A stretch of DNA of 35,125 bases from an uncultured Pseudomonadota bacterium (GTDB lineage Bacteria; Pseudomonadota; Gammaproteobacteria; Methylococcales; Methylomonadaceae). Shown one piece after another: positions 28,040 through 34,472 of the stretch (the stretch's first letter is position 1; each line of letters starts with the position of its first letter). Below the pieces are notes generated by a model. The model was given only the letters and a program-made list of their open reading frames with translations. It was not told the DNA's origin and ran no database searches. Where the stretch lies: contig CAINDC010000003.1 of the NCBI GenBank assembly GCA_903847275.1, positions 1 through 35,125 on the forward strand, given 5' to 3'. Made by a program: the position numbers and the translations under genes.

Positions 28040-29089
28040 TCAAGCCCTACGCTGTATATCAGTGATAGGGCTTTTTTGTGGGTATGACAGAATTTTGTCA
28101 TTGACCTTAGAATTATTCGCATAACTAATTAGGTTTTCACTCGACAAATGCGCGTAACGTAAAACCATCTTTAAATCTGACCAACCGCCTAATTCTTTTA
28201 AGACGTGTAGCGGTGTTCCATTTTGAATATGCCAACTCGCCCAAGTGTGCCGTAAATCATGATAGCGAAAATTCTCAATTCCTGCACGTTTTAAGGCATT
28301 TCGCCAAGTATCGTTATTCACCACATTAACGGGTTTTCCTGCATAAGTAAAAACACTTATTTCATGCTTGCCAATTTGGGAGCGCAACGCCGACAGCGCG
28401 TCATCATTCAATGGAACGGCGATTGACTTGCCTGATTTTGTTTCATTTGCATCAATCCACGCGGTGCGTTTTTGTAAATCAACATTCGACCATTTTAAGT
28501 GAATCACGTTTGATGCGCGTAAACCCGTTGCTAGTGAAAATTGCGCCATTGCCTTGGTCAACGGAGGCAATTCTGCAAATAAACGTGCTACTTCTTCATG
28601 TGTCAACCAGCGAACCCGCTCGTCTTTAACAGGCAATAACTTTACGATAGGATGATTTTCTAGCCATTCCCATTCGCGATGCGCGGCGATTAAAATACCA
28701 CGCAAAACGGCAATAGTTCGATTTACAGTGCTATTTTTTGCCCCCGTCGATAACTTATGCGCCTTAATCCGTTCAATTAAATGGCGGTTAATTTCGTCGA
28801 GCATCTTATCTGCTAAATGCTGATTTAAATAACGTAACGCTTGCTTATCCGAACGCAATGATTTTTTGTGTGCGCGTTCATTCAACCAACGCACCACCGC
28901 CTGCTGCCAACTATAACGTGGTTTTTCACCGACATTTTTAACGCGCCACGCTTCAACTTTTAATCGGTCATGCAATTCTTGCGCTTGTTGCTTGTTTTCA
29001 GTCCCAGCAGATTGGCGTACTCGTTTGCCGTTTGCGTCAATGAAGTCAATGTACCAGTTGCCGCTTTTTTCTTGTTTGTAGATTGCCAT
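28040..29089 (-). CDS. Phage-type tyrosine integrase
   Basis: 349 residues. An N-terminal arm-binding domain (YKQEKSGNWYIDFIDANGKR) and a SAM-like core domain (about 65-150) precede the catalytic domain. Catalytic residues are visible as the Arg in ATGLRASNV, HDLRHTWASWH and the Tyr in VLRYAHLSS. A strong ribosome site (AGGAG) precedes ATG 29089. The gene overlaps the upstream HTH gene by 130 bases in another frame. It would integrate and excise the element near yebC. Its last codons run into a hairpin. Confidence 0.93.
   Translation of the reverse strand: MAIYKQEKSGNWYIDFIDANGKRVRQSAGTENKQQAQELHDRLKVEAWRVKNVGEKPRYSWQQAVVRWLNERAHKKSLRSDKQALRYLNQHLADKMLDEINRHLIERIKAHKLSTGAKNSTVNRTIAVLRGILIAAHREWEWLENHPIVKLLPVKDERVRWLTHEEVARLFAELPPLTKAMAQFSLATGLRASNVIHLKWSNVDLQKRTAWIDANETKSGKSIAVPLNDDALSALRSQIGKHEISVFTYAGKPVNVVNNDTWRNALKRAGIENFRYHDLRHTWASWHIQNGTPLHVLKELGGWSDLKMVLRYAHLSSENLISYANNSKVNDKILSYPQKSPITDIQRRA
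28042..28077 (+). terminator. Strong hairpin with plus-strand T run at the integrase/yebC junction
   Basis: AAGCCCTA and TAGGGCTT pair perfectly. An inner stem CGCTG/CAGTG (with a G-U that favours the plus strand) closes a TATAT loop. It is followed by TTTTTT on the plus strand. No plus-strand gene precedes it, so its purpose is unclear. It encodes the last integrase residues on the other strand. Confidence 0.6.
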
Positions 29090-29956: not shown

Positions 29957-30787
29957 TTAGGCTTTCAAAACGCCTTTCATTTTGTCTACTTCATGCTTGG
30001 TTAAAACTAAACCGCCCGATTTTTCAACGACAAACTTCAAATCATCAAACTGGTATTTGAGTGATGATTTTTGTTCTAACTCTTGAATCCATTTTGTGGC
30101 GACTAACGCCATGCTATCAGGGATTTGAAAACTAACTGATTGCACTGGTGCAGACAATGCTTTTACTTGTTGTTCGAGTTCTAACAGATATTCTTGTTTC
30201 ACGATAACGTACTCGTCGAGCGTCGGTTCACGCAATCCTAAAAACGCCAACATTTCATCGACTTTACCCGTAGGCAAATCTTCAAGTCGTGAAACATGAT
30301 AAGCGTAGTGCAAGCGATGCCAATAATACGAGTGCGCTTCTTTTGTTTTTGCGACGTGCTTTTCAATCGCCGTGCGAAGCAGCAGTTTTTCTTTTGAAGT
30401 GACGAATGGGGAAACGGGTAAATCAACAAGACCGTTTCGTTTTGGCATAAAGTGATTTGCCAGCACGTCGAAACATTCTTCTTGGTATTTGATTACCAAA
30501 TCTTTGATTTCAGGTTTGACGCGAGTTGAATCAACACCGAAAAGCCAACCGTTTAACATTTTCAACGGAAGCATTAACATCTCTTGCAATCCGCCTTTTG
30601 AAGGTGTGGTTATCATAACCATACCTTTGCTAAGTATCGGATGACGCTTGATTTTTTGAACTTGAGCAGACCAATCAAGCCCGATATTTTCACAAATTGG
30701 TTTCATCGCAACGTAAGGAACGTTGTCGATTAGGGTTGCGAACAAAGATTGATTGTTGAAATTTACTGCAATGATATTTTGAGACAT
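29957..30787 (-). CDS. Phage antirepressor-like protein (P22_AR_N domain)
   Basis: 276 residues. The N-terminal domain (about 1-115) with VPYVAMKPICENIGLDWSAQVQKI and LKMLNGWLFGVDSTRVKPEIK matches P22_AR_N, found in phage antirepressors that inactivate repressor proteins. The C-terminal half is helical and not clearly an ANT or KilA-C domain. Lower-quality spacing (GTGAG) precedes the ATG. The unusual structured stretch upstream suggests post-transcriptional control. No repressor gene is visible in the window for it to act on. Confidence 0.82.
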   Translation of the reverse strand: MSQNIIAVNFNNQSLFATLIDNVPYVAMKPICENIGLDWSAQVQKIKRHPILSKGMVMITTPSKGGLQEMLMLPLKMLNGWLFGVDSTRVKPEIKDLVIKYQEECFDVLANHFMPKRNGLVDLPVSPFVTSKEKLLLRTAIEKHVAKTKEAHSYYWHRLHYAYHVSRLEDLPTGKVDEMLAFLGLREPTLDEYVIVKQEYLLELEQQVKALSAPVQSVSFQIPDSMALVATKWIQELEQKSSLKYQFDDLKFVVEKSGGLVLTKHEVDKMKGVLKA

Positions 30788-30950
30788 AATAATTACTCAC
30801 TAAGTTAATGAACTGTGGTCGTGATGACCATTGTTGAACTACTTAACCGTCGTCGTAATTTCTGAGATTATGGCGACGGGTTCATTTCGAGTTACTACCA
30901 CTGGTGACTAAAGCAAAACCAGCCCGCATAAAGCGGCTCGCAACAAACCC

Positions 30951-30956
30951 ATCATA
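30951..30956 (-). promoter_or_regulatory. Possible -10 box for the antirepressor transcript
   Basis: On the minus strand this reads TATGAT, five of six matches to TATAAT, downstream of the bidirectional terminator. It would give a leader of roughly 150 bases covering all four hairpins. No good -35 box is seen. Confidence 0.25.
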
Positions 30957-30966
30957 AATGAAAGGC

Positions 30967-30991
30967 AAAAAAATAGAGCTTGCGCTCTTTT
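30967..30991. terminator. Bidirectional terminator-like hairpin
   Basis: AGAGC-TTGC-GCTCT with TTTT on the plus side and seven A (T on the minus strand) on the other side. It would separate the 61-aa gene from the antirepressor on the minus strand and could end the plus-strand RNA. Confidence 0.7.
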
Positions 30992-31083
30992 GTCGCTTTA
31001 GGTCAATCAGCGGGGTAGTAATCCGCACACTCGTTTTTTTCAAGTGCGAGAAAAGAATACACCCGCCGAATAGTTCACGTCAA

Positions 31084-31269
31084 TTATTTTTTGTTGTGAA
31101 GTGTTACTTTGCCACCCGATGCACGCGCCGAAAGCATAGAGCGATTAAACTCTTGTTTATCAACGCCATGTCCGCGAATAAAAGCACGGTTAGGCGATTC
31201 TTGCTTTTCTTTAGGTTCTGCATTGGCTTTGCGTTCTTCAAACGTACCACGTTGTTTTGCTTGTCCCAT
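31084..31269 (-). CDS. Small basic protein (MGQAKQRG type), unknown
   Basis: GGAG is seven bases before ATG 31269, so I use that start (61 residues) rather than the track start at 31296. The opening MGQAKQRGTFEERKANAE is found on small proteins of phages and proteobacterial genomes with no known role. It is basic and hydrophilic, probably a nucleic-acid- or protein-binding peptide. It sits immediately after two tandem terminators. Confidence 0.6.
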   Translation of the reverse strand: MGQAKQRGTFEERKANAEPKEKQESPNRAFIRGHGVDKQEFNRSMLSARASGGKVTLHNKK

Positions 31270-31284
31270 TTTGTATCTCCAAGT

Positions 31285-31308
31285 AAAAAGCCCCACTTTC
31301 GCAGGGCA
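31285..31308 (-). terminator. Second of two tandem intrinsic terminators
   Basis: On the minus strand GCCCTGC-GAAA-GTGGGGC forms a 7-bp stem with two G-U pairs and a GAAA loop, then TTTTT. It ends only about 15 bases before the start codon of the 61-aa gene. Confidence 0.7.
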
Positions 31309-31329
31309 TAAAAAAACCGCTTTCGCGGT
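31309..31329 (-). terminator. First of two tandem intrinsic terminators
   Basis: On the minus strand ACCGC-GAAA-GCGGT is followed by seven T, a classic compact terminator after the 109-aa gene. Confidence 0.88.
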
Positions 31330-34061: not shown

Positions 34062-34472
34062 TTAGTTGTTGGCGAATACCATTAGTTCATCAATCAACGG
34101 GGTTAATATCGCAACATCTTTGCGATAGATTTTACAGTCAATCAAGAAGTTATAACGATAGGCTTCAGCGCAAACGGTGATTGCCGTTAAATGCGCCTCG
34201 TACTTATCAATGTCGGTTTTAAAATCGGTTTCTTTTACCAATTGTGCAAGTAAACGGCCCAATTTGTGCGTGCGTGGATAAGCCCCAAATTCACTGCGCG
34301 TTTCCAGTAAGTGCTTAAAAAGCAATTCAAACAACTGTTGAAAGTGGAAACAGTGCATTGAGCAATCTTTGACGGGCGATTTCTCGAAAAAATCACAGGC
34401 AATCGCGTGTTCCCATGCTTTGCCGCCTAAGTTTTCGACGTTCTCAAACGCCTTGAGTTTTTCTGCGTACAT
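34062..34472 (-). CDS. HEPN-domain protein
   Basis: 136 residues. HCFHFQQLFELLFKHLLETRSEFGAYPRTHKLGRLL is the core of the HEPN fold (helical, often in RNases and nucleotide-binding toxins), and a second helix pair with AEAYRYNFLID follows. The usual Arg-x4-6-His catalytic motif is not evident: RYNFLID lacks the His. It may therefore be a non-catalytic HEPN protein. AGGAG stands before the ATG. The common MNT nucleotidyltransferase partner is not seen. Its only neighbour is the unknown 170-aa gene 16 bases upstream. Confidence 0.75.
   Translation of the reverse strand: MYAEKLKAFENVENLGGKAWEHAIACDFFEKSPVKDCSMHCFHFQQLFELLFKHLLETRSEFGAYPRTHKLGRLLAQLVKETDFKTDIDKYEAHLTAITVCAEAYRYNFLIDCKIYRKDVAILTPLIDELMVFANN

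Follow-up and report, generated by a model that had tools for sequence, protein, structure and literature searches.

The 300 bases between a promoter-like site (31083–31054) and the start of ant, encoding an antirepressor, most likely serve as the immunity leader to the antirepressor operon of a prophage, in which early leader termination promoted by a C4 antisense RNA would keep ant off (probability about 0.8). An earlier note on this DNA had proposed an RNA-based immunity element ahead of the antirepressor gene, and a C4 RNA was found there. On sequence grounds the element is a C4 antisense RNA operon of the ordinary kind, with an upstream-only target as its uncommon trait. With the strand corrected, the prophage can be assigned an immunity of the C4/CI class, and its natural C4 locus, with a leader target alone, would allow experiments to tell C4 control by termination from C4 control by translation.

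The window, by which we mean the whole 35,125-nt stretch of DNA that was analysed, consists of host DNA ending in a prophage, whose leftward-transcribed genes follow the integrase as far as the contig end (Table 1). No direct DNA relatives of 30700–31320 were found among phage records, nor of 30600–31060 among plasmid records. A 53-aa open reading frame spanning leader and C4 (30882–31043, minus strand) had no Pfam or PHROG match and was regarded as a chance frame. The early region of the prophage also encodes a 136-aa protein (34062–34472, minus strand) with a marginal match to a HEPN domain (23.6 bits, cut-off 22). Two further C4 loci of the same genome, L001 and L002 (contigs C24 and C104), adjoin AlpA-type genes, that of L002 also lying ahead of a Toprim protein, and both look like P4-like satellites.

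Table 1. Features of the antirepressor operon and its leader, in window coordinates.
Feature	Position	Strand	Basis or remark
Integrase	28040–29089	−	Prophage gene
ant, controlled gene, antirepressor with P22_AR_N domain	29957–30787	−	276 aa; PF10547, E 3.6e-37; PHROG 524, anti-repressor Ant
13-bp stem: 3′ strand of C4 P1 (CCGTCGCCATA) and downstream partial copy of P1 5′ strand	30847–30879	−	Fold, homologues
C4 antisense RNA, three-helix fold (P1, P2, P3)	30869–30959	−	RF01695 score, covariation, fold
a′, GGUAGUAA, between P3 and 3′ strand of P1	30892–30899	−	Rfam match; complementarity search
b′, GCUUUAG, loop of C4 hairpin P3	30908–30914	−	Rfam match; complementarity search
Intrinsic terminator of leader, AGAGCGCAAGCTCT followed by an A and a run of seven T	30967–30988	−	Stem 30988–30975 and U run
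isrK/c4-a1b1-like leader RNA	30969–31047	−	RF01394, 29.5 bits, E 2.9e-4; below the gathering score of 50 and therefore not classed as an isrK member
b1 target, CUAAAGC, single-stranded linker	30995–31001	−	7-nt complement of C4 b′ loop
a1 target, UUACUACC, exposed in loop of hairpin II	31014–31021	−	8-nt complement of C4 a′
Promoter-like site: −35 TTGACG (31083–31078), 18-nt spacer, −10 TATTCT (31059–31054)	31054–31083	−	9/12 match, not above shuffled expectation alone

Identity, strand and fold of the C4 RNA

C4 antisense RNA (RF01695) is the only RNA in the whole window to exceed its curated Rfam cut-off, matching 30959–30869 on the minus strand over the full model length (1–87) at 47.7 bits (cut-off 45). 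A comparison with the Rfam C4 family had been suggested in the earlier note, which named C4 of P1/P7 and the CI RNA of P4 as precedents; these are the correct family, but the P22 sar-like RNA that it also named is unsupported here. C4 RNAs are processed from a longer transcript and act via their a′ and b′ loops (PMC5320573), and both c4 and c4-a1b1 are among the motifs listed by Weinberg et al. (PMC2864571). A criterion for the family is RNase P processing to an RNA of ~77 nt; by homology to P1, the mature C4 RNA would here be about 30953–30872. The RNA is longer than the family consensus, and its 5′ sequence is GAU, where a GGW motif has been reported for C4 processing (PMC5320573).

The stretch 30788–31083 is more strongly structured than shuffled sequences on either strand, with z = −3.73 for plus and −3.69 for minus, and folding energy is therefore uninformative as a strand test; the minus-strand fold of 30959–30869 gave z = −3.83. 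C4 loci were gathered from the same genome (3), the genus (12 of 18 genomes) and the family (110 of 237 genomes). Among 30 aligned C4 RNAs, 98.2% of cells were paired in the minus-strand fold, versus 77.0% when shuffled, and sliding the alignment by 1–3 columns reduced pairing to 29–50%. Compensatory changes on both sides of a pair were found in 17 of the 24 C4 pairs; the covariation that the earlier note wished to see sought in homologues is thus present, for the minus-strand fold. Read on the minus strand, the C4 helices of 57 homologous loci hold 210 G-U pairs against 9 A-C, while those of the window itself comprise 14 G-C, 5 A-U and 5 G-U pairs, with zero A-C and no broken pair. These patterns indicate that the structured stretch is real and that its RNA comes from the minus strand, upstream of ant and on the strand and in the transcript of that gene.

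The strand and the geometry are where the earlier note went astray. Its hairpins can be drawn, and both the hairpin 30847–30879 and the terminator-like hairpin exist, but the larger minus-strand fold was missed. The two odd pairs of 30847–30879 are indeed G-U on the plus strand and A-C on the minus strand; they are unrepresentative, however, because the local hairpins overlap the larger fold, and the wobble-based argument for a plus-strand RNA reverses once the 210 G-U and 9 A-C pairs of the minus strand are counted. The bases of another of its hairpins, 30890–30909, belong to the P3 arm of C4 and to its a′ segment, and inspection of the sequences shows that the nearest relatives have not conserved this hairpin. 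The 13-bp stem at 30847–30879 and P1 are mutually exclusive, and the stem sits where relatives show a2. Hairpins of this type are cognate-specific in the family (7.28 versus 5.62, 0/5000 permutations), with an unexceptional 6.0 for the window itself, and in homologues they carry 64 G-U and 69 A-C pairs, with no strand preference.

The earlier note favoured a plus-strand RNA, antisense to the leader of ant, which would resemble sar of phage P22. The gene controlled by sar is an antirepressor of the same family, and sar, a true antisense RNA, is read from the strand opposite to it; an opposite-strand RNA of the sar type is unsupported at the window locus. A plus-strand fold with z near −3.7, one promoter-like site at 30762–30790 (9/12) together with the terminator-like stem 30847–30879, and a report of two antisense RNAs to C4 copies in Acinetobacter (PMC5320573) would suit such an RNA, but it is made very improbable by the wobbles of the conserved helices, to which the neutral stem adds nothing, by zero Rfam family matches on the plus strand, and by promoter-like sites in no excess over shuffles (3 versus 1.7, sd 1.2). 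A view of the inverted repeats as operators bound by a repressor protein, and not as RNA structure, seems hardly credible: operators would not be expected to show the compensatory changes or the strand bias in wobble pairs that the C4 helices have, and they leave the loop-to-leader complementarity described below without explanation; this reading would cover at most the inverted repeat at 30816–30830, near the ant start, which has no RNA explanation here.

Leader targets and the proposed control of ant

The transcript is predicted to start near 31047 on the minus strand, and TTGAC-type −35 boxes lie at the same place in relatives. The leader is made up of hairpin I (31047–31027), hairpin II (31026–31010), a single-stranded linker and the terminator, and it ends 9 nt ahead of C4, with order, spacing and fold as in relatives, where isrK scores 30–62 bits at the same place. 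No match to c4-a1b1 (RF03163) was listed in the Rfam search. Nearly all homologous loci have a stem followed by a T run ahead of C4.

Targets were sought as stretches of at least 6 nt complementary to the loop region of C4, a search that recovers the annotated a1, b1, a2 and b2 of phage P1 and, in P4 and Gifsy-1, finds sites that recur upstream and downstream of C4. The 8-nt match of a1 to a′ in the window was equalled in 0 of 55 other leaders, and a1 and b1 occurred jointly and in the right order by chance in 5 of 20000 leader shuffles. The terminator comes after both, giving the sequence of leader target and then intrinsic terminator that is seen in P4-type leader termination. Complementarity of this kind is specific to each locus across the family: upstream, the mean longest match was 6.88 for a′ and 6.95 for b′ in the RNA's own leader versus 4.66 and 4.80 in other leaders (0/5000 permutations), and downstream it was 6.79 and 7.27 for cognate versus 4.35 and 4.58 for non-cognate regions (0/5000 permutations). 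An ordered a1-b1 pair was present upstream in 46 of 57 loci, compared with 1.3% of non-cognate combinations, and an ordered a2-b2 pair downstream in 48 of 57, compared with 1.2%, several of the latter overlapping the Shine-Dalgarno (SD) sequence. From these patterns, C4 appears to act by short loop complementarity to its own leader and not as an opposite-strand antisense transcript.

The downstream side of the window is different. No match to a′ or b′ of at least 6 nt was found there, the longest being 4 nt for each, and the window locus (L003) is one of six upstream-only loci among the 57. Its clade mates tend the same way: L021 is without an ordered downstream pair, the pair of L022 is displaced, and L072 has one short downstream match. 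No icd-like frame coupled to ant was found either; the sole frame, of 9 codons (30831–30805), ends before ant, and it was rejected as an icd/orf45-like coupling peptide because it was not seen in the nearest relative, L059. The inverted repeat at 30816–30830, TGGTCGTGATGACCA, lies just ahead of ant and overlaps the start of this frame.

Three known systems share the layout to different degrees. The Gifsy-1 locus isrK-STnc1160/orf45-anrP has the same parts in the same order and on the same strand, namely a promoter, isrK with an intrinsic terminator, C4 and an antirepressor-like gene (PMC4825925), and scores 79.3 bits for isrK and 69.0 for C4 (RF01695); it differs in its downstream sites, TTGGCGT at +6 and ATCACCG at +36, and in the coupled orf45, neither of which the window has. 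There, isrK RNA reads through into a processed ~80-nt RNA and anrP, and isrK was likened to seqA of P4 (Hershko-Shalev et al., PMC4825925). The P4 immunity leader, seqA-CI RNA-seqC, likewise gives an isrK/c4-a1b1 match (60.8 bits for isrK) followed by a C4 match (74.9 bits), with a leader target before a terminator, and pairing of CI RNA with seqA and seqC brings about termination (PMC4825925). Unlike the window, P4 has matching downstream sites too (GTGAGAA, TTCACAGGA) and controls replication genes instead of an antirepressor. The immI region of P1/P7 (c4-icd-ant) is alike in its C4 RNA, its upstream a1 and b1 at similar distances and its downstream antirepressor; in the P1 record, a1 and b1 are annotated upstream of c4, and a2 and b2 downstream, at the icd ribosome-binding site. 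Translation of icd/ant is repressed through a2/b2 in P1, whereas the window has neither these sites nor icd, and the P1 mechanism is therefore not transferable as it stands.

The identity and strand of the C4 RNA, its fold, the a/a′ and b/b′ complementarity, the gene order and the terminator can be read from the DNA itself; processing, action in trans, termination as the output and a role in lysogeny are inferred from P1, P4 and Gifsy-1. On this analogy, a minus-strand transcript would run from the isrK-like leader and its intrinsic terminator through C4 into ant, and read-through RNA would be processed to a stable C4 RNA. The a′ segment and b′ loop of this RNA would then pair in trans with a1 and b1 of newly made leader RNA, and the pairing would favour termination before ant, so that the antirepressor stays off in the lysogen. 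Silencing would not extend to an incoming phage whose a and b sequences differ. Against this stands the finding in Gifsy-1 that anrP is activated by isrK given in trans, an effect that constitutive expression of the C4-equivalent RNA did not prevent (PMC4825925), which leaves the regulatory outcome tentative even in that model system.

Control of the P1 type, in which C4 would pair with the ribosome-binding region of ant and block its translation as a2/b2 do before icd, would fit the 48 loci with ordered downstream pairs, several on the SD sequence, and the recovery of P1's own a2/b2 by the same search. With a2/b2 and a coupled icd-like frame missing from the window, and its 9-codon frame not seen in L059, translational blocking is less likely here and leader termination is favoured, and we regard the P1-type reading as improbable. 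The absence of a2/b2, taken with an isrK-like element below threshold and a C4 longer than the consensus, might instead reflect a decaying locus that has lost half of its targets and no longer regulates ant. Decay is quite unlikely for a locus in which a1 and b1 are exact and ordered, no C4 pair is broken and the 276-aa ant frame is intact.

Module exchange and sRNA-Xcc1 in the C4 position

In the window's clade, the same type of isrK-C4 leader precedes antirepressors with P22_AR_N (window, ant), Bro-N (L022:572–1423) and pRha (L072:931–1680) domains. These three proteins differ in their N-terminal domains and are similar in their C-terminal parts, which suggests domain shuffling behind one RNA module; module and protein therefore seem to have been exchanged independently. 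L059, a relative from the same family, carries tandem C4 RNAs at 562–646 and 1364–1453, the second of which precedes an ant with an early stop.

The RNAs around 105 relatives of the window antirepressor were counted within 400 nt upstream (median 64 nt). C4 lay just upstream in 19 and sRNA-Xcc1 (RF02221) in 81, counts that are not independent events because many of the loci are redundant. sRNA-Xcc1 takes the place of C4 directly upstream of P22_AR_N antirepressors at L077:1379–1464 and in L085, L086, L088, L090, L091, L102, L103, L116, L118, L128 and most of L082–L186. Like C4, it is built of a closing helix, an inner hairpin and P3, whose loop is variable, with a further segment following P3. 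The two RNAs are alike in position, in their three-helix layout and in a loop complementary to leader and SD sequence; they are unlike in that sRNA-Xcc1 is a separate sequence family, with no shared Rfam clan, and has a conserved AAUACAAUACC internal loop that C4 is without.

Complementarity of the sRNA-Xcc1 P3 loop, examined for 36 distinct loops, is also locus-specific, both to its own leader (6.89 versus 4.73, 0/5000 permutations) and to the downstream region (6.69 versus 4.74, 0/5000 permutations). Downstream, the loop usually matches the gene's SD sequence, as ACTTGTGA does with TCACAAGGAG...ATG. Most of the ten loci listed from a search based solely on RNA family show the same complementarity, the exceptions being L187 and L192, with one side only, and L196, with neither convincingly. 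sRNA-Xcc1 is therefore probably a C4-like immunity RNA, and an orphan family outside any Rfam clan gains a probable, testable function. Previous reports tie it to virulence regulators (HrpG/HrpX) or symE integron cassettes, with no mechanism given (PMC2996969, PMC12189769, PMC12444791), and none of the top literature matches for both terms mentioned sRNA-Xcc1 together with an antirepressor. It is possible, if rather doubtful as a whole, that the slot before P22_AR_N, Bro-N and pRha-type antirepressors takes either C4 or sRNA-Xcc1, working alike, and that the C4 of the window's small clade has lost its ribosome-binding-site arm and silences ant via the leader only. A second, weaker sRNA-Xcc1-like RNA (42.9 bits, model R2) was seen downstream in the same Moraxella locus (L087/L118:3720–3808).
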